30,234 bases of DNA from a virus: IMG/VR virus record IMGVR_UViG_3300007640_003853, positions 1 through 30,234 of that record; one strand, given 5' to 3'. Each line of letters begins with the position of its first letter. The stretch's first letter is position 1. The translations under genes were made by a program, and so were the position numbers. The notes under the pieces were generated by a model, which searched no databases, was not told where the DNA came from, and was given only the letters and a program-made list of their open reading frames with translations. Shown here in pieces: positions 2,950 to 30,234 of the stretch.

Positions 2950-3191
2950 ATTTTCTAATCTCCCTCCTCATCGCCACAACACCACTGGTGCCTCCTTCGA
3001 TTGGAGGTCCTGTGCCATCACATCCTCCGATTCCCTCTAATGAGATTAAGCTGACAGAGATAGAAGTTTATCTGAATAATGTTATTAATTCTAGAGAAAG
3101 ATCACCAATTGAGGAAATCTTAGAAGACTTCGGATCAAGTTGTGACAGTTTTTATGGGTGCGGTCTCCATTATCCTGGAATTAAATGGTAA
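2946..3191 (+). CDS. Small hypothetical protein with signal-like N-terminus
   Basis: 81 residues, no recognised domain. The first 15 residues (MNFLISLLIATTPLV) are hydrophobic and could be a signal peptide or membrane anchor, followed by a Pro-rich stretch (about 16-31), a charged helical part and a Cys-containing tail (SSCDSFYGCG) that could form a disulfide outside the cytoplasm. Start and stop overlap both neighbours (ATGA upstream; 7 bases downstream), so it is likely real and co-translated. Function unknown. Confidence 0.6.
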   Translation: MNFLISLLIATTPLVPPSIGGPVPSHPPIPSNEIKLTEIEVYLNNVINSRERSPIEEILEDFGSSCDSFYGCGLHYPGIKW

Positions 3192-3844
3192 AAAGAATTT
3201 TAGTCACAGGTGCCAACAGTGGTCTTGGTAAATCCTTGATAACTCAGGGAACAATGCGAGGTCACTTTATGGTGCCCCATTACAGAAAAAACTCATCAAT
3301 TTATGAAAACTTAGAAGGGGACATCAGGGGATTTAGATTCCTTGACAAACTGCAAGACACTCTTCACAAACACAACATTACTGTGTTCATCAATAATGCT
3401 GCTGTTTACCTCAGTGGTTCCATTGTTGACATGGCGGATTGTGAGATTGATGAGGTGATTGAAACCAATCTAATCGCACAGATCAAGATGTTGAAGAGAG
3501 TTTATAAGGTTTTCAGAGACAAAGGTAAAGGAAAGATTATCAACATCAATTCTCTTGCTGGGAAGTTTCCCTCAGCAAAGGAGAGTCTTTATTGTGCGTC
3601 TAAGGCTGGCTTAGATGCATTCTCCAAGTCACTTCAATTGGAAGCGATTGGAACAGGAGTGGAGATTGTGGATGTTTATCCAGGTGCCATGAGAACAAAG
3701 ATGACAGGACACAGAGGAGACCAAGAGACAATGATGTCACCAAAAGAGGTGGCGATGGGTGTTCTTGACACGCTGGATAATTCAACTTATTATGTTAATG
3801 AATTGGTTCTGAGGAAGAGGAATGAAAGGCGCTTTACTAACTAA
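3185..3844 (+). CDS. Short-chain dehydrogenase/reductase (SDR)
   Basis: 219 residues, a classical SDR. The cofactor motif is TGANSGLG (8-15), NNAA lies at 70-73, and the catalytic residues are S123 (INS) and the YxxxK pair Y136/K140 (YCASK). It should catalyse an NAD(P)-dependent oxidation or reduction of a hydroxyl or keto group. Next to an alcohol dehydrogenase and transketolase in a glycan cluster it probably acts on a sugar precursor (inference). It overlaps the dehydrogenase by 23 bases; a purine-rich GAGGAAGAGGA ahead of that start serves as the internal ribosome-binding site. Confidence 0.85.
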   Translation: MVKRILVTGANSGLGKSLITQGTMRGHFMVPHYRKNSSIYENLEGDIRGFRFLDKLQDTLHKHNITVFINNAAVYLSGSIVDMADCEIDEVIETNLIAQIKMLKRVYKVFRDKGKGKIININSLAGKFPSAKESLYCASKAGLDAFSKSLQLEAIGTGVEIVDVYPGAMRTKMTGHRGDQETMMSPKEVAMGVLDTLDNSTYYVNELVLRKRNERRFTN

Positions 3845-4829
3845 ACTGAACGCTCCTCTGGAGATCCGCGAACTGGAACTTACACCATTGAAAATTGGTC
3901 AAGTTCTGGTAAAGGTTCTCACCAGTGGGATTTGTGGTGCTCAGTTGCATGAGATAAAAGGACATAAGGGAAACGCGAAGTTTCTCCCACACCTGATGGG
4001 ACATGAGGGATGTGGCATTGTGGAAGAAGTTGGACCTGGTGTGACCACAGTGAAACCAGGAGACAAGGTGGTGATGCATTGGAGGGTTGGGAGTGGCATT
4101 GAGTCTGCTTTCCCCAATTACATTTTGGATGGAAAGACCATCAGCAGTGGAAAGGTCACCACACTGCAAGAGATGTCCATTGTGAGTGAGAACAGACTGA
4201 CTGTTATTCCACAAAACACTCCCACTGTTCTGGCAGCAATGCTGGGTTGTTCAATGACAACAGCACTGGGCATTATTGATAATGAGTGTGATCTAAAGTT
4301 TGGCGAGAGAGTTGCAGTTATTGGCTGTGGTGGAGTGGGTCTAAACCTCATTCAGGGTGCCTTTCTAAGGGGTGCTGCTGAGGTTGTGGGTGTGGACATC
4401 AACGATAAAATGCACGCACTCTCTTGTCTGGTGGGTGCTGACAGGTTTGTTTCTTCCATTCGTGATGTGATGGAGACTTATGATGTCATCATCGACACCA
4501 CTGGACATCCAGAGGTTATTGGACAGGCTTTCAGGAAACTGGCACCCAGTGGTCGTCTTATTTTGGTGGGACAACCTCGTCCTGGAATGTCTCTTTACAT
4601 TCCTAATGCTCTGTCGATGTTTGATGGAGAAGGCAAGGTGGTTCGTGCCACACAAGGAGGAAGAACTAACCCCACAAAAGACATCCCTCGTTACATTGAC
4701 TTGGCGATGAAAGGTGTGTTAGAATTTGAAGAATTACACACTGACACTTTCTCTTTAGAAGAGATCAATCAGGCTTTTGATTATCTAAAGTCTGGAAACG
4801 CTGGAAGAATTATGGTAAAGATAAACTAA
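3822..4829 (+). CDS. Zinc-type alcohol dehydrogenase family (MDR) protein
   Basis: 335 residues. The N-terminal GroES-like domain carries SGICGAQ with the catalytic Cys near residue 38 and the GHEGCGIVEEVG signature near 65. The Rossmann part has VIGCGGVGLN (about 164-173). The four-Cys structural zinc loop normally following the GHE motif is absent: that stretch reads as MHWRVGSGIESAF. It should be an NAD(P)-dependent dehydrogenase for a polyol or sugar. Pairing with an SDR and split transketolase recalls sugar-phosphate gene sets of capsule clusters, where such MDR enzymes reduce pentulose phosphates, but the substrate cannot be told here. Confidence 0.85.
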   Translation: MKGALLTKLNAPLEIRELELTPLKIGQVLVKVLTSGICGAQLHEIKGHKGNAKFLPHLMGHEGCGIVEEVGPGVTTVKPGDKVVMHWRVGSGIESAFPNYILDGKTISSGKVTTLQEMSIVSENRLTVIPQNTPTVLAAMLGCSMTTALGIIDNECDLKFGERVAVIGCGGVGLNLIQGAFLRGAAEVVGVDINDKMHALSCLVGADRFVSSIRDVMETYDVIIDTTGHPEVIGQAFRKLAPSGRLILVGQPRPGMSLYIPNALSMFDGEGKVVRATQGGRTNPTKDIPRYIDLAMKGVLEFEELHTDTFSLEEINQAFDYLKSGNAGRIMVKIN

Positions 4830-5557
4830 TGTTTTTAGACGAAAGATCAAAACAACTCAGGCGAGACGCCATTGACCTAAGTCTCGCCAATGGTGGTTAT
4901 CATTATGGTGGAACCTTCAGCACTGCTGAGATTCTAAAGCACCTGTTTGATGACATCATGGGAGAGAAAGACAGATTTATTCTCTCCAAAGGTCATGGGT
5001 GTTGGATTTATTATGTTCTCCTTCGTGAGCAAGGATTTGATCCTGTTCTGGAAGGACATCCTGAGTTTGATCCTCACAATGGGATCTTCTGCACTGCTGG
5101 AAGCATGGGCCATGGGTTACCCACGGCTCTTGGTCAAGCACAGGCACGGAAATTGAAGGGTCAGGAAGGAAAGGTGTTTGTTCTCATTGGAGATGGTGAA
5201 GCACAGGAAGGAACCACATGGGAATCCATTTTGATTGGTGGTCATCTGAGGTTGGATAATCTTGTGGTTATCATGGACTCCAATAACATTCAAGGTTCTG
5301 GTTATGTGAATGACATCATGCCAGTGAAAACCCCTCTCATGGGTGCTGCTAATCTGGCAGGGTGGAGTGTTGTTGAACTTTATGGACATGATGAATCTCT
5401 AACCGAGGTTGATTTTGACAAACAGAAAAGACCCATGCTTATTGTTGCCAACACCGTAAAAGGTGCTGGTGTTTCCTTTATGGAGAACAAGCCCAAGTGG
5501 CATTCTAACTGGTTAGGTGGTGAAGAACTGAAACAAGCAAGGGAGGAACTGAAGTGA
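4829..5557 (+). CDS. Transketolase, N-terminal (thiamine diphosphate-binding) subunit
   Basis: 242 residues, equal to the PP domain of transketolase. Visible are SKGH (53-56), TAGSMGHGLPTALG (about 89-102), and the thiamine diphosphate/Mg motif from GDG (121-123) to NN (152-153). The stop overlaps the GTG start of the second half, so the subunits would be made together and form the active site at their interface. Transketolase moves a two-carbon unit between sugar phosphates and makes sedoheptulose 7-phosphate, the substrate of GmhA encoded downstream (known biochemistry; the link is inference). Split pairs are also common in bacterial glycan clusters with other ketol substrates. Confidence 0.9.
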   Translation: MFLDERSKQLRRDAIDLSLANGGYHYGGTFSTAEILKHLFDDIMGEKDRFILSKGHGCWIYYVLLREQGFDPVLEGHPEFDPHNGIFCTAGSMGHGLPTALGQAQARKLKGQEGKVFVLIGDGEAQEGTTWESILIGGHLRLDNLVVIMDSNNIQGSGYVNDIMPVKTPLMGAANLAGWSVVELYGHDESLTEVDFDKQKRPMLIVANTVKGAGVSFMENKPKWHSNWLGGEELKQAREELK

Positions 5558-6036
5558 GAAAGGCATTCGGGGAGACCCTGATGAAATTGGCAGATAAGGA
5601 TGACAAGATTGTCCTTCTGACTGGAGATGTGGAACAAGAGATGGTTCCTTTCAAGGAAAAGTTTCCTGACAGGTTCTTCAATCTGGGTTTGACAGAACAA
5701 ACCATTACAGGAATGGCGGCTGGAATGGCCATTGAGGGGCTGAGGCCCATTGTTTATTCCATCACTCCATTTGTGTTAGAGAGACCTTATGAACAGGTAA
5801 AGATTGACATTGATCAACAGAACCTTCCAGTGATGTTGATTGGTTATTCTGATTACCCCACACATGGTCCGACACACAGACCCCTGAACCCAGAGAGATT
5901 GGTAAGAGTGTTTAAGAACATTCATTCTTTCTTTCCACATGACAGTGGGGCAGCAACAAAATCAATGTTGGATGCTTATTTAATGAAGGTTCCGTCAATG
6001 ATTTTCCTCCACAAAGACGGTTTGCCTTTTATCTAA
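5554..6036 (+). CDS. Transketolase, C-terminal (pyrimidine-binding) subunit, short
   Basis: 160 residues starting at GTG, which overlaps the TGA of the N-terminal subunit. It matches the Pyr domain: LLTGDVE, then GLTEQ (45-49) with the catalytic Glu (E48) that activates the thiamine ring, then GMAAGMAIEGLRPIV. It ends soon after the Pyr domain, so the third transketolase domain (about 120 residues, no catalytic residues in classical enzymes) is missing. The deletion need not abolish activity but may change dimerisation or substrate choice. It directly follows its partner and precedes a methyltransferase. Confidence 0.88.
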   Translation: MRKAFGETLMKLADKDDKIVLLTGDVEQEMVPFKEKFPDRFFNLGLTEQTITGMAAGMAIEGLRPIVYSITPFVLERPYEQVKIDIDQQNLPVMLIGYSDYPTHGPTHRPLNPERLVRVFKNIHSFFPHDSGAATKSMLDAYLMKVPSMIFLHKDGLPFI

Positions 6037-6806
6037 TGTTAGATTCAATCAAGATTTACGACACCGAACACACTAAAGAAAGAGTCGGAAGTAAGAAGGA
6101 TGGTGGTTATGTTGTCCTGAATGAGATCTCCAAAGACACACAAGTTCTTTTGTCTTATGGTGTGGAGGACAACACCAGTTTTGAGAATGATTTCACTCAC
6201 AAGTTTGGGTGTGTTGCTCATCTGTTTGATCACACCATTGATGGATTAGATCCTAATTCTGACAGCAAGAGATTTACATTCCATAAGGAAGGCATCTCTC
6301 ATGTGAAGACAAAGGATTGTGACACTCTGATGACACACCTCTCAAAGTTTGGCAACAGAGACCATGTAACACTCAAGATGGATGTGGAGTGGTGCGAATG
6401 GGCTGTGTTTGAAACCTTTCCTGAGGATTATCTTGACTTCTTTGATCAGATTCTCTGTGAGTTTCATCTAATTCCAATGGATTATAAGGGCGGTCATTCT
6501 CCTTACTTCACAAAGTTTCATTCCAGAGTTTATGATGAGATTAATAATTTACTCATGAAACGTTATGCTGGAGTGATGCATAAACTCCAGAGACATTTTT
6601 ATGTGTTTCATGCCCATTGTAATAATTCTTTGCCATGTAATGTGGTGAATGGTGCTGATGTTCCACCTCTTCTGGAATTGAGTTTGGTTCGCAAGGACCT
6701 TGTAAAGAATCCTAAACTCGCCACTGGACCTTGGCCCGATCCTGTGTTAGACTATCCAAATAAAGGGGATAGACCCGACATTACACACCTCCATTGGAAC
6801 CAATGA
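6036..6806 (+). CDS. Methyltransferase, Methyltransf_22/METTL24-like
   Basis: 256 residues. The N-terminal KERVGSKKDGGYVVLNE followed by LLSYGVEDNTSFENDF is the characteristic start of the Methyltransf_22 family (METTL24-like; related to FkbM enzymes), with HLFDHTIDGL as the acidic ribose-binding strand and LKMDVEWCEW (about 114-123) as the motif equivalent to KxDVEG. The likely reaction is SAM-dependent methylation of a sugar hydroxyl; the acceptor is unknown. It overlaps the transketolase stop by one base (TAATG) and couples to the kinase through ATGA. Confidence 0.7.
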   Translation: MLDSIKIYDTEHTKERVGSKKDGGYVVLNEISKDTQVLLSYGVEDNTSFENDFTHKFGCVAHLFDHTIDGLDPNSDSKRFTFHKEGISHVKTKDCDTLMTHLSKFGNRDHVTLKMDVEWCEWAVFETFPEDYLDFFDQILCEFHLIPMDYKGGHSPYFTKFHSRVYDEINNLLMKRYAGVMHKLQRHFYVFHAHCNNSLPCNVVNGADVPPLLELSLVRKDLVKNPKLATGPWPDPVLDYPNKGDRPDITHLHWNQ

Positions 6807-7549
6807 CCAAGAACATCCTTGTTATCGGAGACAGCTGTCGCGACCAGTACACTTATTGTCACGCCGACCGATTGGCGCCAGATAAACCAGTGCCTGTTCT
6901 TGAGGTTCATGGGTTGGATATGGTGCCGGGAATGGCGAAGAACGTGTTCAATAACCTTCAAAGGTTGAAACCAGGTAACAAGATTATTACCAATTCCAAC
7001 TGGAAGGAGATTGTAAAGAATCGTTATGTGGATGAGAAGAGCAACCACATGTTCTTCCGTGTGGATAGTTCTGAATCTCCAGAACCAATCAATCTAAATT
7101 CTGTTCTGGAGATTATTACTGAATATAACTATGTGATAATCTCTGATTATGATAAAGGTTTTCTCTCTGAAGAAGACATTTCAATCATTTGTGCTTCACA
7201 TCCTAATGTCTTTCTAGATACCAAGAAGGTTCTTGGGGACTGGGCTCTTGATGCTCGTTACATTAAGATCAACCAACATGAAGCAGACAGGAGTCGTCAG
7301 TGGATTCAGAGTGTCGATCGTGACATCATTGAAACCAGAGGAGCAGCGGGTGCTGTTTATAAGAACCGAATTTATCCAGTGAAGAAGAAGGTGGATGTTC
7401 TCGATGTGTCGGGTGCGGGTGATGCCTTTCTTGCTGGATTGGTAATGAAGTTTGCGGAGGAGAAGAACATTCACTCTGCCATAAACTTCGCCAATCGATG
7501 TGCTTCCTCCGTGGTTCAGCATCGTGGAACAACATTAATTGACTTATGA
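6803..7549 (+). CDS. hldE-N: PfkB-family kinase, HldE/RfaE N-terminal type (heptose 7-phosphate kinase)
   Basis: 248 residues from ATG 6803 (ATGA overlap with the previous stop; the in-frame TTG 6794 is less likely). The N-terminus (LVIGDSCRDQYTY, then RLAPDKPVPVLEV) follows the start of E. coli HldE. IISDYDKGFLSEEDI matches its LSDYAKG segment, and VLDVSGAGDAFLAGL is the PfkB signature with the catalytic Asp of GAGD. HldE phosphorylates D-glycero-D-manno-heptose 7-phosphate at C1. It is shorter than the E. coli kinase domain (about 318 residues), and the nucleotidyltransferase half is a separate gene two loci downstream. Confidence 0.82.
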   Translation: MTKNILVIGDSCRDQYTYCHADRLAPDKPVPVLEVHGLDMVPGMAKNVFNNLQRLKPGNKIITNSNWKEIVKNRYVDEKSNHMFFRVDSSESPEPINLNSVLEIITEYNYVIISDYDKGFLSEEDISIICASHPNVFLDTKKVLGDWALDARYIKINQHEADRSRQWIQSVDRDIIETRGAAGAVYKNRIYPVKKKVDVLDVSGAGDAFLAGLVMKFAEEKNIHSAINFANRCASSVVQHRGTTLIDL

Positions 7550-8355
7550 ATATTCTCCTTACGGGATCAGACGGATTTATCGGAAGAAACTTCACCAAAA
7601 CACTCTCGGCCATGGGACACACTCTTGTGTGTGTGGAGAAGGATGAGTGTTGGGAGTTCATGGATAACTTTAGAGATTGGCCTGATGTTGATTTGGTTCT
7701 TCATCAGGGAGCAATCTCTAACACAACAGAGAGAAACATTCGCAAACTCTTTGATAATAATGTTGACTTCACGCTCAGTCTGTTTGAGACTGCAATGAAG
7801 TTTTCAATTCCTGTAAAGTTTGCATCCTCTGCGAGTGTTTATGGGAACCTTATGACTGAGGTAAATCCTCTTAACCATTATGCCATGTCTAAACTTATGG
7901 TGGACATGTGGATTGAGGATAACAAGAATAACTTTCCTCTCATTCAATCCTTTAGGTACTTCAATGTGTATGGGGAAGGTGAGGAGTTCAAGGTCACACA
8001 AGGACAGGCATCTCCCATCTCCACCTTTGTGGATCAGGTAAGAAGAACAGGAACAGTTACATTGTTTGAGGGTTCTGAGAACTTCCACAGAGATTTTGTA
8101 TGTGTTCGTGATGTGGTATCCTTAGTGTTGAATAACGATAAGGGCTCTGGTGTCTGGGACTTGGGAACAGGGAAACCAATTTCTTTCCAGACAGTTGGAG
8201 ACTTGATATCATCCAAATATAATGCTAAGATAAGGGTAGTAAAGTTTCCAGAACATCTGAGAGATAAGTATCAGATTTACACCAAAGCAAAGCCACATTT
8301 CCCAAATTACAACTTCATCACAGTGGAAGATTATGTCGAAAATTGTTTGGACTAA
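7546..8355 (+). CDS. hldD: ADP-L-glycero-D-manno-heptose 6-epimerase (HldD/RfaD family)
   Basis: 269 residues, NAD(P)-dependent extended-SDR fold. TGSDGFIG (6-13) binds the cofactor and YAMSK provides Y112 and K116. Assignment to HldD rather than general GalE rests on three diagnostic stretches: HQGAISNTTE (53-62; E. coli has HEGACSSTTE), LFEGSENFHRDF (173-184) and GTGKPISFQTVGD. HldD inverts C6 of ADP-heptose, the last step of ADP-L-glycero-D-manno-heptose synthesis. It is about 40 residues shorter than the E. coli enzyme. ATGA overlap ties it to the kinase, and the transferase half of HldE follows. Confidence 0.88.
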   Translation: MNILLTGSDGFIGRNFTKTLSAMGHTLVCVEKDECWEFMDNFRDWPDVDLVLHQGAISNTTERNIRKLFDNNVDFTLSLFETAMKFSIPVKFASSASVYGNLMTEVNPLNHYAMSKLMVDMWIEDNKNNFPLIQSFRYFNVYGEGEEFKVTQGQASPISTFVDQVRRTGTVTLFEGSENFHRDFVCVRDVVSLVLNNDKGSGVWDLGTGKPISFQTVGDLISSKYNAKIRVVKFPEHLRDKYQIYTKAKPHFPNYNFITVEDYVENCLD

Positions 8356-8360
8356 TATGT

Positions 8361-8366
8361 TATAAT
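8361..8366 (+). promoter_or_regulatory. Putative -10 box (TATAAT) ahead of the nucleotidyltransferase gene
   Basis: A perfect TATAAT preceded by TATGT lies in the only gap (24 bases) of the heptose operon. No convincing -35 box is visible, and transcription would start only about 7 bases before the ATG at 8380. It may be an internal early/middle promoter giving a nearly leaderless message. Confidence 0.4.
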
Positions 8367-8379
8367 GTGGAGATGAATT

Positions 8380-8808
8380 ATGTCTAAATTAGTATTTTTG
8401 TCAGGTGTGTTCGATCTCGTTCATCCAGGACACATAGAGCTACTAAAAGTATCAAAATCTCTCACAATGGGAGGACAATTAGTGGTTGGTTTGGATTATG
8501 ATGAGAAGGTAAGGAAAGACAAAGGTGTTGAGCGACCAATAAATACTTGGCAAGACAGGAAAGTTCTTTTGGAATCCATCAGATATGTGGATGTTGTTGT
8601 TGGATTTGGAACAAAAGAGGGACTGGAAAATCTTATAGAATTCTACAAACCAGACATTCTTATAGACGGAGGCGACTGGAGGGAACATGAGGGAGTTGGT
8701 AGATCTTTTGCGAAGGAAGTTAGATTCTTTGATCGGATCGGCGGATATTCCTCCACAGGAATCATTGAAAAGATTGGGAGGATATATGACAAATTTGGGA
8801 GCGTCTGA
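8380..8808 (+). CDS. hldE-C: Nucleotidyltransferase, HldE/RfaE C-terminal type
   Basis: 142 residues matching the cytidylyltransferase-fold half of HldE. It has GVFDLVHPGHIELL with the HxGH motif intact (15-18), VGLDYDEKVRKDKG followed by RPIN, DGGDW and a final GGYSSTGIIEKI, equivalent to the STTxxI motif that closes the active site. The predicted reaction is transfer of AMP to heptose 1-phosphate to form ADP-heptose. E. coli joins kinase and transferase in one chain; here they are two genes separated by hldD. The gene starts after a 24-base gap holding a TATAAT box. Confidence 0.85.
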   Translation: MSKLVFLSGVFDLVHPGHIELLKVSKSLTMGGQLVVGLDYDEKVRKDKGVERPINTWQDRKVLLESIRYVDVVVGFGTKEGLENLIEFYKPDILIDGGDWREHEGVGRSFAKEVRFFDRIGGYSSTGIIEKIGRIYDKFGSV

Positions 8809-9154
8809 TCCTGTTGTTTGGGTCCCTAAGGGATGGGGTGGTGAGACGATTGTAGTTAATTCTAATGAGTATTGTGGTAAGATACTTCACTTTGTAAAGG
8901 GACATCGATGCTCATGGCATTACCACGAGATTAAAGATGAAACTTTTTATGTGTATAAGGGTGCCATTGAATTGACTTACGGTGAAACAGATGACATCAC
9001 AGATGCAACAACAGTTGTGTTGGCTGAGGGTGATAAGTTTCACATCACTAGAGGACTGAGGCATCAGATGTATGCCCTGTTGAACACTGAGTTGTTAGAG
9101 TTCAGTACTCGTCATTATGATGAAGATAGTCACCGGGTGGAGAAAGGAGATTGA
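8786..9154 (+). CDS. Cupin-domain protein
   Basis: 122 residues from ATG 8786, preceded by GGGAGGAT; an in-frame start 33 codons upstream is unlikely because it would overlap the preceding gene by over 100 bases. A single cupin: CSWHYHEIKDETFYV (about 42-56) supplies two His and a Glu, and GLRHQM the last His of the metal site. Small cupins of this look are sugar-phosphate isomerases, sugar-nucleotide keto-isomerases or the C-terminal half of type II mannose-6-phosphate isomerases. Between heptose genes, a sugar isomerase or epimerase is the best guess; the reaction is not determined. Confidence 0.75.
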   Translation: MTNLGASDPVVWVPKGWGGETIVVNSNEYCGKILHFVKGHRCSWHYHEIKDETFYVYKGAIELTYGETDDITDATTVVLAEGDKFHITRGLRHQMYALLNTELLEFSTRHYDEDSHRVEKGD

Positions 9155-10095
9155 TTATTGCATCATGCCCGTTGAGGGTTTCATTATTTGGTGGTTCGAC
9201 TGATAATCCGTTATTTGTTGAAACTTATGGTCATGGATCTGTAATCTCATTTACATGTAGTCTTAGAACCTACGTTACCATTAGTCAAGATAAGATTGGA
9301 AGAAATCACAATCACAAGTACATCATTAACTATTCTCGCCGTGAAGAAGTTTCTTCTATAGATGAGATTGACAATGAGGTAGTGAGAGTTGTTCTTCAAC
9401 ATTTTGACATGCCACCAGTTCATGTCACACTCACCAGCGATGCGTTTTCACAAGGGAGTGGATTGGCATCATCCTCTTCCTATCTGATTAGCCTCATCAA
9501 GGCATGTCTAATCTTCAAAGGAAAGGCGATGACTGATGTGGAGATTTGTCGCCTTGCTTATGGGTTGGAGTTGCAGTTTAACCCCTACTGTGGATATCAG
9601 GATCCATTTGGATGTGGTGTGGGTGGATTCAAGAAGATTGATTTTTATGGAATCAATAAGATCACTTATGAGTTTCTTTCCACTGAATTATTTTATGAGT
9701 TTGACACTCATTTAATTTTCACTGGAATCACAAGAAACTCCAAGACAATTCTGAAGAAGGTGAGTGGCAATCTGGAGAAGGTGAAACCACTTCTAAAGAA
9801 TGTGGATCATGCTTATGACGCTTTGAGTGGGCGTGACTTCAGAGGTGTGATGAATGAGATGAATAAGTCCTGGAAACAGAAGAAGAAAACAAGTTCATCC
9901 ATTACAGAGAACCCAGTTATTCAAGAGATGGATAAAGAACTCTCACAGAATAAGACAGTTCTTTCTCATAAGTTATGTGGAGCAGGGAATGGAGGCTTCT
10001 TTCTCACCTTCTCCAAACAAGGAACCTTGAATGTTCCTTATGATTGTGTTAGTATTGATGTAACAGCGTCTGGAGTTTATGGCAAATCCGTTTAG
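9151..10095 (+). CDS. hddA: GHMP kinase, D-glycero-D-manno-heptose 7-phosphate kinase (HddA type)
   Basis: 314 residues from a TTG start that overlaps the cupin stop (TTGA). CPLRVSLFGGSTD (6-18) is the HddA-type N-terminus, and SQGSGLASSSS (100-110) is the GHMP ATP-binding loop; a third motif (KLCGAGNGGFFLTF) lies near the end. HddA phosphorylates heptose 7-phosphate to the alpha-1,7-bisphosphate in the GDP-heptose route, whereas the PfkB kinase at 6803 would make the beta anomer. A single operon holding both is unusual. It overlaps gmhA by 17 bases. Confidence 0.85.
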   Translation: MIIASCPLRVSLFGGSTDNPLFVETYGHGSVISFTCSLRTYVTISQDKIGRNHNHKYIINYSRREEVSSIDEIDNEVVRVVLQHFDMPPVHVTLTSDAFSQGSGLASSSSYLISLIKACLIFKGKAMTDVEICRLAYGLELQFNPYCGYQDPFGCGVGGFKKIDFYGINKITYEFLSTELFYEFDTHLIFTGITRNSKTILKKVSGNLEKVKPLLKNVDHAYDALSGRDFRGVMNEMNKSWKQKKKTSSSITENPVIQEMDKELSQNKTVLSHKLCGAGNGGFFLTFSKQGTLNVPYDCVSIDVTASGVYGKSV

Positions 10096-10585
10096 ACCTT
10101 ACATAAGAGCATTGGAATCTGCTCATATGGAGGAGGAGTTCCTGAAGTTCAAAGGGGCATTTGATAATCACAAGAGAATTATTGTTCTGGGTAATGGAGG
10201 AAGCAATGCTGTGGCTTCTCACATCTCTCAAGATTACATGAAGTTTCATAATAAGAAAGTTTCCCTGTTCTCAGATCCATCCATGCTTACCATGATGGCA
10301 AATGATTATGGTTATGAGAATGCCTACAGAAAGTTTCTTGAGTATCATGCAGAACCTGATACCCTGGTAGTTCTCATTAGTTCCAGTGGTGAATCTGAGA
10401 ACATCATTGCGTGTCAGAAGTTCTGTGATGATAATGAGATTTCCTATGGTGTTCTGACTGGGTTCAGTTCTGAGAACAGATTGAGAACCAGATCAAAGAA
10501 AGCACTCTTCAATTACTACATTGACAGTGAGTCATATGGTGTGGTAGAATGTGTTCATCAAGTGTTTCTTCATGGGGTTATATGA
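10079..10585 (+). CDS. gmhA: Sedoheptulose 7-phosphate isomerase (GmhA, SIS domain)
   Basis: 168 residues, a single SIS domain. GNGGSNAVASHISQD (38-52) and SSSGESENI (101-109) are the sugar-phosphate loops of GmhA-type enzymes. It converts sedoheptulose 7-phosphate to D-glycero-D-manno-heptose 7-phosphate, the first committed step of both heptose-nucleotide routes. It is slightly shorter than the E. coli enzyme (192). It overlaps hddA and, by ATGA, the HAD fusion gene. The split transketolase upstream could make its substrate. Confidence 0.88.
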   Translation: MANPFRPYIRALESAHMEEEFLKFKGAFDNHKRIIVLGNGGSNAVASHISQDYMKFHNKKVSLFSDPSMLTMMANDYGYENAYRKFLEYHAEPDTLVVLISSSGESENIIACQKFCDDNEISYGVLTGFSSENRLRTRSKKALFNYYIDSESYGVVECVHQVFLHGVI

Positions 10586-11316
10586 GATATTGTTTTGATT
10601 TGGATGGAACCATCTGTAAGACCCCATTGAATGAGAATGGAAAACCTGATTATTTAAAGTCTGTTCCCATTCCCATCGTGGTGAACCAACTCAAAAAGCT
10701 TCGCGAAGAAGGCCATTACATTATTATTCAGACTGCCAGAGGAAGATCTTCTGGAATTGATTGGACAGAATGGACTGAACAACAACTGGAAAAGTGGAAA
10801 GTTCCTTATGATGATCTGGAACCAATGTTCCATAAACCCAATGCTGATTTTTTTATTGATGATAAGGGAGTGGATGTTTCAGATTGGTTGAAGTTGAGAC
10901 CACTGAAGAAAGGGATTGTCGCTGGTGCTTTTGATTTGATTCATCCTGGTTATATTAGGATGTTTAACCATGCAAAGCAATATTGTAATTACTTAGTGGT
11001 GGCACTTCATGAAAACCCAACATCTGAAAGGAGTTGGAAGATGTCACCAGTTCAATCGGTTGAGGATAGAGTTGAGATTCTTCTTGCTTTATCTGATGTG
11101 GATGAGGTCCTTGTTTATAAAGAGGAAAATCAGTTCCTTGATCATCTTGCCAGTGGTGAATATGAAATAAGATTTCTAGGAGAGGATTATTCAGATGGAA
11201 GTTACACTGGCAAGGAGATTGGAGTTCCCATTGTTTGGGTTCCAAGAAACCACGGGTACTCAACCACAAAATTGAAAGGTAGAATCTATCAACAATATGG
11301 AGAGCTTGGAACATGA
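10582..11316 (+). CDS. HAD-family phosphatase fused to a nucleotidyltransferase-like domain
   Basis: 244 residues from ATG 10582 (ATGA overlap with gmhA). Residues 1-104 are a HAD phosphatase: DLDGT (6-10) with D6 and D8, QTARG, and HKPNADFFIDDK (84-95) with the metal Asp pair. Residues 108-244 follow the cytidylyltransferase fold (GIVAGAFDLIHPGY... and GYSTTKLKGRI), but the HxGH catalytic motif reads HPGY (121-124), with the second His replaced by Tyr. The HAD half could do the GmhB job (removing the C7 phosphate), though it lacks the Cys zinc site of true GmhB. The second domain may be altered in chemistry or inactive. Confidence 0.75.
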   Translation: MRYCFDLDGTICKTPLNENGKPDYLKSVPIPIVVNQLKKLREEGHYIIIQTARGRSSGIDWTEWTEQQLEKWKVPYDDLEPMFHKPNADFFIDDKGVDVSDWLKLRPLKKGIVAGAFDLIHPGYIRMFNHAKQYCNYLVVALHENPTSERSWKMSPVQSVEDRVEILLALSDVDEVLVYKEENQFLDHLASGEYEIRFLGEDYSDGSYTGKEIGVPIVWVPRNHGYSTTKLKGRIYQQYGELGT

Positions 11317-12203
11317 AGTGTCTTGTAACCGGTGCTGCGGGTTTTATTGGATCCAATCTGGTTGATTACCTGATTGATAAAAACGCAATGGTCGTTGCTG
11401 TTGATAACATGTCTGCCAATAATGAAAAGTTTTATTGGAATGAGTCGGGAACTACAAAGGTAGTAGACATTACAGACTATGAAAGAATGCGTCCTCTGTT
11501 CGATGGTGTGGACTATGTGTTTCACCTGGCAGCAGAGAGCCGTCTTCAACCTGCCATTGAGAATCCCATCAATGCTGTGAAACAGAACAGCCTGGGAACC
11601 ACTGTGGTTCTTCAGTGTGCCAGAGAGGCGGGTGTGAAGAGAGTGATTTATTCCTCCACTTCATCCTGTTATGGTGGCAACCCTTGGCCAAATCATGAAG
11701 AACAGCCTAATGATTGCCTGAACCCTTACTCTGCATCTAAATTGTCTGGTGAGATCTTCTGTAAAATGTACTGGGACCTTTATGGTTTGGAGACAGTGTC
11801 TCTAAGGTACTTCAATGTGTTTGGAGAAAGGTCTCCAAAGAAAGGACAATATGCTCCAGTCATCGGTATCTTCCAACGACAGAAGAAGGAAGGACAGGAT
11901 CTAACCATTGTTGGGGATGGTTCTCAACGGAGAGACTTTGTTCATGTTAAGGACGTTGCCAGAGCCAATTATCTATCAGCCATCATGCCACTACTGGGAC
12001 ATGAAGGTGAAGTGTTTAATGTTGGAAGTGGAAAGAACTATTCCATCAAGGAACTGGCTGATGCCATTTCAAGTCATCATACTCATCTGCCAGAAAGAAA
12101 AGGGGAAGCAGAAACAACTCTGGCAAAGATAGATAAAATGAATGAAGTTATTGGATGGAAACCTGAAATTGATGTGATGGAGTGGATTAATGGACAGAGA
12201 TAA
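11313..12203 (+). CDS. NAD-dependent sugar epimerase/dehydratase, GalE-like
   Basis: 296 residues, extended SDR. TGAAGFIGSN (6-15) binds NAD, VFHLAAESR lies at 69-77, SSTSSCYGG includes the catalytic Ser/Thr, and NPYSASK gives Y139 and K143. The C-terminal FVHVKDVA and VFNVGSGKNYSIKEL fit UDP-hexose or UDP-HexNAc 4-epimerases of the WbpP/GalE type. It would provide a nucleotide sugar for the glycosyltransferases on either side. It starts by ATGA overlap and overlaps the GT25 gene by 14 bases. Exact substrate unknown. Confidence 0.82.
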   Translation: MKCLVTGAAGFIGSNLVDYLIDKNAMVVAVDNMSANNEKFYWNESGTTKVVDITDYERMRPLFDGVDYVFHLAAESRLQPAIENPINAVKQNSLGTTVVLQCAREAGVKRVIYSSTSSCYGGNPWPNHEEQPNDCLNPYSASKLSGEIFCKMYWDLYGLETVSLRYFNVFGERSPKKGQYAPVIGIFQRQKKEGQDLTIVGDGSQRRDFVHVKDVARANYLSAIMPLLGHEGEVFNVGSGKNYSIKELADAISSHHTHLPERKGEAETTLAKIDKMNEVIGWKPEIDVMEWINGQR

Positions 12204-12999
12204 GAACAAGTCAGCACACAAACTGAAAGGAATTGGACCCATCTACTGTATCAACCTGGACGATCAACCAGAGAGATGGGAGTGGATGGAAGACCAGTTT
12301 AAGTACTGGGAGATTGAGAATTACACTCGCGTCTCTGCTTATGATGGCAGAGATGATGACCTGAGTGACATTCTCAAGGGACGTTATCCAGACATGATGT
12401 CATCTGGTGAGATTGGATGTGTTACCTCACACCTTAAGGCAATCAAGCAATTTTATGATAGTGGTGAACCTTATGCCATAATGATGGAAGATGATTGTAA
12501 CCTAGATGTTGTGAGGTTCTGGAACTTCACATGGAGAGATTTCTACTCTAAGATTCCTTATGATTGGGATGTGGTTCAAGTCGCAGTGATTGCCACTGGG
12601 GATGTTCATATTCGAATTCATAAGAGGTTTGTGAATGAGTTCTCCACCGCTTGTTATCTTATCACTCGACACCACGCAGAGAAGATGATTCGTCTTCATT
12701 GTCGTGGGGATAAGTACAAACTGGATAATGGAGTGAGACCGCGCCCAGTAGCGGATGATCTTCTCTACAACTCAGGTAATACTTATTCCATACCTCTTCT
12801 GCTTTATAAGCTAGAATTGGGATCCTCCATTCACCCAGAACACATTGAGGTGTTTCATAAAGGAAATTATGAGGCACAACTTAACTACTGGATGAATATG
12901 GGAGCACAAAAAGGAATCGATGAACTTATGAATTTCGATCCTTATTTGGGACGTGTGGTTGAATCATCACAAACCCCACCACCAGAGACCTATTCCTAA
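12190..12999 (+). CDS. Glycosyltransferase family 25 (LPS-biosynthesis type)
   Basis: 269 residues. IYCINLDDQPERWEWM (18-33) is the GT25 opening motif, SGEIGCVTSHLKAI (72-85) the conserved acceptor-side stretch, and MMEDDC (98-103) the acidic metal/donor motif. GT25 enzymes add galactose or similar sugars to LPS or to protein hydroxylysine; in a phage the acceptor could be host LPS or a virion protein. It is the last gene of the glycan operon, and a late-promoter-like box overlaps its stop. Confidence 0.85.
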   Translation: MDRDKNKSAHKLKGIGPIYCINLDDQPERWEWMEDQFKYWEIENYTRVSAYDGRDDDLSDILKGRYPDMMSSGEIGCVTSHLKAIKQFYDSGEPYAIMMEDDCNLDVVRFWNFTWRDFYSKIPYDWDVVQVAVIATGDVHIRIHKRFVNEFSTACYLITRHHAEKMIRLHCRGDKYKLDNGVRPRPVADDLLYNSGNTYSIPLLLYKLELGSSIHPEHIEVFHKGNYEAQLNYWMNMGAQKGIDELMNFDPYLGRVVESSQTPPPETYS

Positions 13000-27251: not shown

Positions 27252-27893
27252 ATGGCAGGTCCTATAGCCAATTCATGGAGGACATCCGCAATCAAGAGCC
27301 GCATTCTGAATGTAGCTCAGACATCTGTTTATCAAGTGAAGTTGCAACCACCTTCCGCCGTCAATAGTTTTCTTGATTCCAGAGGATTTAGTTATTCTCA
27401 GGATGGAACTAATGTTGAGTTGCTTTGTAATGCAACCACACTTCCTGGTCCTAATTTTTACACACATGAAGTAAAGAATGACCATGCTGGTGTGACAGAG
27501 AGAATGGTTTACAGAAAAGATTTTGACTCCTCTGTTGATTTTACCTTTATGGTTGACCACAAATATGATGTGGTTGAGATGTTTGATGGGTGGATGGATT
27601 TCATTGCCGGTTACAATGAAGACCCGGAGGAAGATGCCAATCAGGCACTGGGTTATAGAATGAGATACCCTAATGAGTATCGTTCCGATAATGTTTACAT
27701 TAGTAAGTTTGAAAAGAATGTCAACAGTGTCGGTGGTGGCGACAGTAGTTATCAAATGACTTATCAGTTGATTGGTGCTTATCCCAAGCAAGTTCAACCA
27801 ACTCAGGTAAATTATGACAGGTCACAGGTGTTGAGTTACACTGTCTCCATGGGATTTATTAGATACATCAGAACCCGTGAAAGGCTCAAATAA
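27252..27893 (+). CDS. Tail-tube-like protein (gp19/gp54 family)
   Basis: 213 residues. ATTLPGPNFYTHEVKNDHAGVTERMVYRKDFDSSVDFTFMVD at about 61-102, then MFDGWMDFIAGY and a C-terminal beta part (YQMTYQLIGAYPKQVQP), follow the pattern of the tail-tube fold shared by T4 gp19 and gp54. Next to gp48, gp53 and gp26, the tail-tube initiator gp54 is the likeliest role; it is shorter than T4 gp54 (320). The exact T4 equivalent is uncertain. Confidence 0.68.
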   Translation: MAGPIANSWRTSAIKSRILNVAQTSVYQVKLQPPSAVNSFLDSRGFSYSQDGTNVELLCNATTLPGPNFYTHEVKNDHAGVTERMVYRKDFDSSVDFTFMVDHKYDVVEMFDGWMDFIAGYNEDPEEDANQALGYRMRYPNEYRSDNVYISKFEKNVNSVGGGDSSYQMTYQLIGAYPKQVQPTQVNYDRSQVLSYTVSMGFIRYIRTRERLK

Positions 27894-27918: not shown

Positions 27919-28638
27919 ATGCCATTACCTAAAATTGCCACTCCTCAATATGAGTTGGAGTTGCCATCAACAAAAAAGACAATTAAGTATCGTCCGTTTC
28001 TAGTTAAGGAAGAAAAACTTTTGGTTCTTGCCCTTGAAAGTGAGGACATGAAACAAATCACAACAGCCATCAAACAAGTTCTTAAGAATTGCATCCTCAC
28101 CAGAGGAGTGAAGGTTGAAACACTTCCGACCTTTGACATTGAGTATCTGTTTCTTCACATTCGTGGTAAGTCTGTGGGTGAGGAAATTGAGCTCAACATT
28201 ATCTCTCCAGACGACAGACAGACTAACATCCCAATCAAGATTTCTGTTGATGAGATTCGGGTCATTGAGGATGAGTCTCACAGCAAGCATGTTAAATTGG
28301 ATGACAATCTAATGATGGAAATGAAGTATCCATCACTGGACCAGTTCATCAAAAACAACTTCAACTTCAATGAATCTCTTGACATGGACAAGTCTTTTGA
28401 GTTGATTGCTTCCTGTGTAGGTAAAATCTACAATGAAGAAGAAGTCTGGGTGGCAGAAGAGTTCTCTATGAAAGAGATTGTTGAGTTCTTGGAACAGATG
28501 AACTCAGTTCAGTTTAAGGAGATTGAGAGGTTCTTCTCAACAATGCCTAAACTTTCTCATGAGATTGAGGTTGTGAATCCAAATACTAAAGTTAAGAGCA
28601 CTATCGTTTTGGAGGGATTAGCCAGTTTTTTCGCGTAG
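27919..28638 (+). CDS. gp26: Baseplate hub assembly protein gp26 (T4 baseplate family)
   Basis: 239 residues. PKIATPQYELELPSTKKTIKYRPFLVKEEKLLVLALES (4-41) is the characteristic start of the T4 gp26 family (PF12322), with QVLKNCILTRGVKVETLPTFDIEYLFLHIRGKSVGE in the middle. gp26 works in building the central hub and acts before the tape measure is incorporated. It ends ...AGT TTT TTC GCG TAG: a U UUU UUC slippery heptamer (28626-28632) one codon before the stop. A -1 shift here would join it to the following gp51-like frame. Confidence 0.88.
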   Translation: MPLPKIATPQYELELPSTKKTIKYRPFLVKEEKLLVLALESEDMKQITTAIKQVLKNCILTRGVKVETLPTFDIEYLFLHIRGKSVGEEIELNIISPDDRQTNIPIKISVDEIRVIEDESHSKHVKLDDNLMMEMKYPSLDQFIKNNFNFNESLDMDKSFELIASCVGKIYNEEEVWVAEEFSMKEIVEFLEQMNSVQFKEIERFFSTMPKLSHEIEVVNPNTKVKSTIVLEGLASFFA

Positions 28639-28675
28639 GAATGGTCCACATGGACCTTGAAGCCTATTTTAGGCT
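28626..28675 (+). promoter_or_regulatory. Candidate programmed -1 ribosomal frameshift signal
   Basis: Slippery heptamer T TTT TTC (28626-28632) in the correct phase for the gp26 frame, followed after 10 bases by hairpin GGTCC-ACAT-GGACC (28643-28656) and a second hairpin AGCCT-ATTTT-AGGCT (28661-28675). A -1 slip bypasses the gp26 stop (28636-28638) and continues in the gp51-like frame. Confidence 0.65.
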
Positions 28676-28820
28676 CAACTTTGCCCTTATGCAGTACCAT
28701 AAATATAGTTTGACGGAAATAGAAAACATGATCCCATGGGAACGTGATGTCTATGTTGAGCTACTTAAGCAACACTTAGAAGAGGAAGAAGAAAAGCAGA
28801 AGGCAAGACAAAATGGCTAG
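28641..28820 (+). CDS. gp51: gp51-like hub assembly/tape-measure chaperone
   Basis: 59 residues if started at ATG 28641, or 56 from ATG 28650, which is better spaced from AGGA at 28637-28640. The sequence (MDLEAYFRLNFALMQYHKYSLTEIENMIPWERDVYVELL then an acidic/basic tail) is what cyanophages carry at the gp51 position; it is far shorter than T4 gp51. It lies in the -1 frame of gp26 and may also be made as a gp26-gp51 fusion by frameshift. Its last 8 bases overlap the next gene. Confidence 0.65.
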   Translation: MVHMDLEAYFRLNFALMQYHKYSLTEIENMIPWERDVYVELLKQHLEEEEEKQKARQNG

Positions 28821-30234
28821 AGATCCCAAGAGACTAAGAAAGGCTTACGAATTCAAACTTGGCAAAGACCTTGTTAGCAAACTTTCTGACGCCCAGATTG
28901 GGATTCTCTCTTCTTATTACAACTCTCTTTCTGATGCAGAACAATCAAAGATTGATAATGAGATAATTAAAGGAATATCAAATGATCTTCGCGACATGGC
29001 AGAGTCCATGGTGTCGGAGAATTCTGAAACTAAGACAGTTGATGAGATTCAAGAAAGACTAGACAAGAACCTTAAGGAAACCTCTGACAACATTCTAAAC
29101 AAAATTGATGATCTCATTGCTGAGTATCAGAACAAAGTAAAGAATGGACCATCTAAAACCAAGAAGAAAGGTGGTGCTCTGGCGACGATCGCCAAACCAA
29201 AGACTAATTACCAAGAGATTCCTAACGATGAATTGATCGGTGATGAAGATATCGATCCGGCAATTCTTCAGGAACTTGGCATTCAAGATGCCACCGATTT
29301 AACTTATGATGAGTATAAAACTCTTCTGAAAGAGAGACTGATTGCCAATAGACAAACAGGTAAGGGTGTTTCTGTTGAATCTGATCAGCAACTCAGAGAA
29401 GAACTAAAGAGAACTCGAACTAAGAAAGGAAAGTTTAAAGTTAAACCAACAGCTGCCACAATGGCATCTGTAATCACAAAACCAAAATCAGGAACTTCAT
29501 CAACTTATTCCTCAAAATCACCTCTGATGTTGAGGGAAGAAGAAGAGGATAAGAAAGAAGAAGAGAAGGTTGATAATTTTGTTGTTCAACAACTTCCAAA
29601 ATCTTTGGGAGGAGTTGTTGAATCATTGAACGCCCTCAATGCCATGTTGGCATCGATGTTGGCGTTTGATAAGGCTCAGGCTGATGCCGAAAGGCAGGCA
29701 GCAAGTAAGGCAGAAAGAGAAAGTAAAGAGAACAAATCAGAGAAGAAAATAAAGAAATCTTTCTTAGGAATGGTGAAGGACGCTGCTCCTAAGTTAGGAA
29801 TCATGGATCGGTTGAAGAAATTCTTCGGCAACATTCTGGCAGGAGGTGCTCTTCTTGCTCTGATGAAGTGGTTGCAAGATGAAGATAATCAAAAGAAGAT
29901 TGAGGATGTAAAGAATTTTATTGTTGATAAATTTCCACTTATAATGGGTGGTATTCTTGCACTAAAGGCTCTGAATATTGGTGCGAAACTATTGTCTTTT
30001 TTAGGGATACTTAAAACTATTGCAATTAGTCTTGGTCCAACGCTTGCTCTTATTGCAGCTGGTGCAGCAGCAGGTGCACAGGCAGATCAACAAAGAAGAC
30101 AAGAGGAAGAGCGTCAAAGACAAGATAGATCCCGTGAGGATCAAGCAAGACGAGAATCTGGTCTTCCTGACTTGACTCCTGAAGAACAAAGACGACGCCA
30201 AACTTATGATGATGCGAGATCTAGCGCAGGTCAA
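28813..30234 (+). CDS. Probable tail tape-measure protein (3'-truncated by window edge)
   Basis: 474 codons from ATG 28813 with no stop before the window end. N-terminal half is charged and helical with low-complexity Lys/Glu (about 220-265). A Lys/Ala/Glu-rich coiled coil follows at 290-320, then strongly hydrophobic helices (NILAGGALLALMKWL, about 341-355; MGGILALKALNIGAKLLSFLGIL and ISLGPTLALIAAGAAAG, about 378-420), then an Arg/Gln-rich helix. This mix, and its place after gp26 and gp51, is that of a tape measure (T4 gp29 role), though I cannot align it to gp29. It begins over the gp51-like stop. Confidence 0.62.
   Translation, partial: MARDPKRLRKAYEFKLGKDLVSKLSDAQIGILSSYYNSLSDAEQSKIDNEIIKGISNDLRDMAESMVSENSETKTVDEIQERLDKNLKETSDNILNKIDDLIAEYQNKVKNGPSKTKKKGGALATIAKPKTNYQEIPNDELIGDEDIDPAILQELGIQDATDLTYDEYKTLLKERLIANRQTGKGVSVESDQQLREELKRTRTKKGKFKVKPTAATMASVITKPKSGTSSTYSSKSPLMLREEEEDKKEEEKVDNFVVQQLPKSLGGVVESLNALNAMLASMLAFDKAQADAERQAASKAERESKENKSEKKIKKSFLGMVKDAAPKLGIMDRLKKFFGNILAGGALLALMKWLQDEDNQKKIEDVKNFIVDKFPLIMGGILALKALNIGAKLLSFLGILKTIAISLGPTLALIAAGAAAGAQADQQRRQEEERQRQDRSREDQARRESGLPDLTPEEQRRRQTYDDARSSAGQ

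Follow-up and report, generated by a model that had tools for sequence, protein, structure and literature searches.

A probable programmed -1 frameshift unites gp26 and gp51 as one tail assembly chaperone gene in a cyanophage-like virus

Introduction

Are gp26 and gp51 of cyanophages two genes, or are they one gene that is read in two ways? Public cyanophage records carry them as two baseplate hub genes, and gp51 is missing from some of these records. The question is raised here by a DNA fragment of 30,234 bases from a marine cyanobacterial virus (hereafter the window), whose closest phage records are cyanophages at less than 80% DNA identity. An initial annotation of this fragment proposed that a programmed -1 frameshift joins gp26 to the small gene that follows it, and that the pair is the myovirus counterpart of the G/GT chaperones of phage lambda.

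The second of these proposals is supported by our analysis but it is not new, as gp26 and gp51 of T4-like phages have already been identified as tail assembly chaperones (TACs) (Vladimirov, Gautam & Davidson 2022, Virology 566:9-15; as cited in PMC10885494 and PMC12846349). Citing that work, the PRFect paper describes T4-like phages with a short TAC gene and a longer fused gene (PMC10885494), and the paper on Pseudomonas phage Adele describes poly-T slippery signals in the TAC-N genes of T4-like phages (PMC12846349). So far as these citing papers report them, the T4-like proteins share with the present locus their family (PF12322, with a C-terminal domain in gp51), their short and long forms and the poly-T signal. 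T4 and its close kin employ two genes for the short and long forms, whereas the phage studied here has one gene with a -1 site. A 2016 review considered G-T shifting to be widely conserved in long-tailed phages with the exception of T4 (PMC5009743). The cyanophage locus therefore adds a case of a frameshifted T4-like chaperone, although the phage trick itself is not new; what was worked out in this analysis is a Shine-Dalgarno (SD)-like element, a start-codon test of the -1 frame and the co-linearity of the predicted fusion with T4 gp51.

Results

All features of the locus lie on the plus strand. A tail tube gene (27252..27893; phrog_45, E 1e-25) stands directly 5' of gp26, which occupies 27919..28638 and encodes 239 amino acids. 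The 3' end of gp26 reads GAG GGA TTA GCC AGT TTT TTC GCG TAG, and within it the slippery heptamer T TTT TTC (28626..28632) has its X base at codon position 3 (the X XXY YYZ phase) and is followed by a single codon, GCG, before the zero-frame stop TAG (28636..28638), just as the initial annotation had placed it. From 28632 the -1 frame translates as RVGMVHMDLEAYF... and runs uninterrupted to the TAG at 28818-28820, which bears out the claim that the small gene lies in this frame with no stop between. This extension of 62 codons plus stop (28632..28820) corresponds to the 'gp51' of relatives (phrog_634, E 2e-29), and the predicted fusion of 300 residues and 35 kDa agrees with the length of about 300 residues first estimated. 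The next gene (28813..30234) overlaps the 3' end of the -1 frame with its start and is still open at the end of the window. By its position and length it is a candidate tape measure gene; family searches gave it no tape-measure match above noise, and its counterpart in P-HM1 carries a VanY peptidase domain.

The heptamer does not appear to be an accident of composition. TTTTTTC is depleted in the window, where it is found 4 times compared with 14.5 expected from shuffles, and of the 15 in-phase slippery heptamers in its 47 genes, that of gp26 is the only one to be placed at the end of a gene with a long open -1 frame leading from it (62 codons, 60 of them past the stop). Relatives were collected by scans with gp26 queries from several lineages and from annotated phage records, and 340 loci were usable. 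The initial annotation had staked its reading on relatives keeping both the heptamer and the phase of gp51, and both are kept in 338 of the 340, with an in-phase T TTT TTN close to the gp26 stop. Past that stop the median number of open codons is 61 in the -1 frame, as against 7 in the zero frame and 5 in the +1 frame. The two loci without the heptamer are that of Vibrio phage K476 and L343, one of a pair of nearly identical Stenotrophomonas phage records; its run is of five T's and that of its sister L342 of six. The shorter run may reflect a sequencing error in the homopolymer or the loss of the shift site.

In the 128 non-redundant loci all six T's are invariant, both third-codon positions included, and third positions near the run are free to change. 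At the Z base C is the most common (100 loci), followed by A (14), T (13) and G (1), and the amino acid is sometimes altered. Synonymous resampling that holds amino acids and codon use as observed retains the six T's in 49.5 +/- 5.4 of the 128 loci against 128 observed, a result that rules out protein constraint alone as the explanation of the run, and which, like the other conservation figures, is to be read as strength rather than as an exact probability since the loci share kinship. Part of the conservation at the nucleotide level follows from the Phe-Phe and Glu-Gly residues, which are themselves conserved. As an observation, the frameshift signal is far beyond chance. In a few relatives (L216, L235 and others) the heptamer lies 24 nt 5' of the gp26 stop rather than 0-3, which gives the short protein a longer tail.

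The main alternative is that gp51 is a separate small protein, re-initiated at the ATG at 28650 (or 28641) once gp26 has terminated, and that the poly-T run serves only to encode Phe-Phe. The window itself lends this some substance, as AGGA stands 9 nt before ATG 28650 and forms a modest SD duplex (-4.5); moreover, gp51 is given a start of its own in the records, and three Vibrio phages have a TAATG overlap without any heptamer. It is difficult to extend such a route to the relatives, however, as 41 of the 128 non-redundant loci have no ATG, GTG or TTG within the first 15 codons of the gp51 frame and only 24 have a start codon whose SD pairing is at least as strong as -4 kcal/mol. Even so, the -1 peptide can be aligned ungapped beginning with the residue that follows the shift (consensus R-I-A-L-S-H-D-S-L-E-N-Y-Y-K-T-N-F), so that its conservation extends upstream of any start, and in the 41 loci lacking a start codon a shift is almost the only way for ribosomes to reach this conserved segment. 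The six T's are also kept far beyond what the protein needs, and in T4 the fused form is one polypeptide. Independent initiation of gp51 is rejected as a general route by the start-less loci, and as an account of this locus we consider it improbable; some free gp51 could still be initiated at ATG 28650 in the window.

In several records the C-terminal domain in the -1 frame is not annotated (L086 3085-3249, L344 3220-3434, L347 3127-3291, L360 1525-1706 and L361 1525-1701). The phages in which it lies unannotated in an intergenic gap are Cronobacter S13, VmeM-32, ZPAH1, ACG-2014b and S-H9-1.

If ribosomes do slip at the heptamer, sequences on both of its sides may assist them. The initial annotation named no upstream element and overlooked GGAGGG at 28611..28616, an SD-like putative stimulator 9 nt 5' of the heptamer. 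In relatives the SD pairing energy peaks 7-10 nt 5' of the heptamer, beyond a synonymous-codon null (z -9), and the Glu codon at this element is GAG in 59 of 99 cases compared with 32% elsewhere. GGAGGG lies 24 and 33 nt from the gp51 ATGs, and these distances are too long for it to serve gp51 initiation.

On the downstream side two hairpins had been noted from 10 bases past the heptamer. Both are present, but only the first is supported in relatives. Hairpin 1 (GGTCC-ACAT-GGACC, 28643..28656) begins 10 nt 3' of the heptamer, and in the window's clade 87.6% of its cells are paired and 10 double changes occur, a covariation signal that none of 500 shuffles equalled; RNAalifold applied to the same clade returned no consensus hairpin. 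Hairpin 2 (GCCTA-TTT-TAGGC, 28662..28674) is specific to the window and probably not essential, and its absence from relatives led us to reject it as a conserved element. A 68-nt region of the window folds at -23.2 kcal/mol (z -3.1), beaten by only 1 of 200 shuffles, and in relatives the folding z-scores are lowest just 3' of the heptamer, with a mean of -1.5 at +10 to +55. Other lineages have hairpins of their own in this position, such as GCCCTC-GAGGGC in the P-HM1 group.

These flanking elements bear on a second alternative, in which RNA polymerase slips at the six T's, adds or removes a base and so fuses the two frames in the transcript. A homopolymer run in nearly all relatives is what such slippage would call for, but six T's are short for bacterial transcriptional slippage, the run ends with C in most loci and with A or G in some, and an SD-like element together with downstream structure suits slippage by the ribosome. 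Polymerase slippage is thus rated as very unlikely. That gp51 is merely the remnant of a fusion gene broken by an indel or a sequencing error, as adjoining out-of-frame pieces of what is a single gene in T4 might suggest, is refuted by the recurrence of one frame relation in 338 of 340 loci, the protein sequences of both parts being constrained, and it can be given almost no credence.

The family and fold of gp26 are in keeping with a chaperone. The protein matches PF12322 with 235 bits, where the cut-off is 24.5 (E 9.7e-70), and also phrog_150; NCBIfam gave no match for either gp26 or gp51. AlphaFold2 (AF2) folding was applied to gp26 alone and to a natural fusion of the T4 type, and the model of gp26 has a pLDDT of 86. 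On structural re-alignment, residues 1-96 match 2ob9 (Z 7.8), 3fgx (Z 7.8) and YqbN, 3klu (Z 7.2), the next match being at 4.8; a Z of 7.8 is just under the safe range of the tool (8). Plain Foldseek of gp26 against the PDB gave nothing below E 0.001, with 2ob9 third in rank, and a profile sequence search of solved structures with gp26 gave chance matches only. The fold of the HK97 tail assembly chaperone (2ob9) and of YqbN (3klu) is like that of the gp26 N-domain, although identity is about 8% or less and gp26 has an extra region of about 140 residues. The model moderately favours a role as a chaperone over the historical baseplate-hub label.

Comparison with T4 proved informative in helping to understand how the two parts are related. 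T4 genes 26 and 51 are divergent neighbours whose products both match PF12322, and gp51 additionally has the C-domain, to which that of the window is homologous (phrog_634). The predicted fusion and T4 gp51 are co-linear, and their alignment passes through the junction without a gap, whereas T4 gp26 ends there. T4 gp51 is a full-length gp26 paralogue with a C-terminal domain, in effect a hard-wired fusion. The earlier statement that T4 makes gp26 and gp51 from separate genes holds as to there being two genes, but the small gene by itself corresponds to only a part of T4 gp51. An earlier study had remarked that the match of cyanophage gp51 to T4 gp51 is confined to the C-terminus of the latter (Sullivan et al. 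2010, PMC3037559); this is explained by a shift in one group and a duplicated, hard-wired pair in the other.

The same division is apparent among genomes. Seven T4-type genomes have two PF12322 genes, the second of them long, and their gp26 ends without the heptamer. Twelve other genomes have one PF12322 gene and retain gp51 in the -1 frame, with the heptamer in 10 and a TAATG overlap in 2 Vibrio phages. Complete relatives of the frameshift type thus have one PF12322 gene and T4-type genomes two; in the 30-kb window there was one PF12322 match, and a second long PF12322 gene with an in-frame C-domain was not found. In Vibrio phages K476 (L345, 3050-3255), 1.255.O (L362, 2040-2246) and K361 (L363, 2050-2290) a PF12322 gene without heptamer is followed by a C-domain whose ATG overlaps the stop (TAATG), which suggests a different route to the C-domain. 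Vibrio phage 1.255.O is filed under Ackermannviridae. A CPxC zinc-ribbon-like motif stands before the junction in gp26 of Straboviridae (L086, L344, L346 and T4), and cyanophages have an NPNT-like motif there.

Discussion

It is suggested here that gp26 and gp51 are very probably one chaperone gene read in two ways by means of a programmed -1 shift. The frameshifted chaperone originally proposed is thus supported by the phase and conservation of the heptamer, the scarcity of start codons, the co-linearity with T4 gp51 and the fold of gp26, and its two products are predictions. The majority of ribosomes would stop at the TAG at 28636 and yield the short TAC-N of 239 amino acids. Some would pause at U UUU UUC, aided by pairing of GGAGGG to 16S rRNA and by the downstream hairpin, whereupon the two tRNA-Phe could re-pair one base further back, on UUU UUU, with reading continued in the -1 frame to give a TAC-NC of 300 residues. 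If it works like lambda G/GT, the chaperone would coat the tape measure protein with many short copies, and its few long copies would recruit tail tube subunits. In two cyanophage papers with virion proteomes, gp26 and gp51 are not mentioned.

In the E. coli dnaX gene, an SD-like element about 10 nt upstream, a heptamer and a downstream hairpin make up the signal. This three-part layout is shared with the present locus, where the spacing of the SD-like element is 9, but the gene and the heptamer are unrelated and the hairpin here is weak and lineage-specific. The heptamer of lambda G/GT is G GGA AAG whereas here it is U UUU UUC with SD-like and hairpin elements added, and no sequence similarity between the two systems is known. 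The likeness to lambda is in arrangement. In lambda a -1 shift shortly before the short gene ends yields a short and a long chaperone, and the tape measure gene comes next (PMC5009743); the same is predicted here, with a candidate tape measure gene in that place. In Pseudomonas phage Adele and the Vandenendeviridae, TAC-N ends in a conserved T-run at which a -1 shift is predicted, and the -1 frame is usually annotated as a separate hypothetical gene; the motif there is GTTTTT, however, and the phage family is different (PMC12846349).

A fuller account can be put forward, to which we give about an even chance. The three-part signal would be stimulated in the manner of dnaX, perhaps with a ratio of long to short product much greater than that of lambda; the T4 pair would have arisen by duplication of this gene with the shifted product hard-wired in frame; and some Vibrio phages would have exchanged the shift for a stop-start overlap. 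The locus offers an evolutionary comparison, within one phage group, of a frameshifted gene with a duplicated in-frame pair, and its compact shift site with putative stimulators on both sides is amenable to a simple reporter.

Other genes of the window are also of some interest. Positions 3185-12999 hold a large set of sugar and nucleotide-sugar genes, including a short-chain dehydrogenase, PfkB and GHMP kinases, an SIS isomerase, two cytidylyltransferases and a GT25 glycosyltransferase, and this set looks like a heptose-type pathway. Transketolase is split into two genes, one for the N-terminal domain (4829-5557) and one for the pyrimidine-binding domain (5554-6036). A peptide deformylase gene, a known kind of host-like cyanophage gene, is present at 1770-2207.
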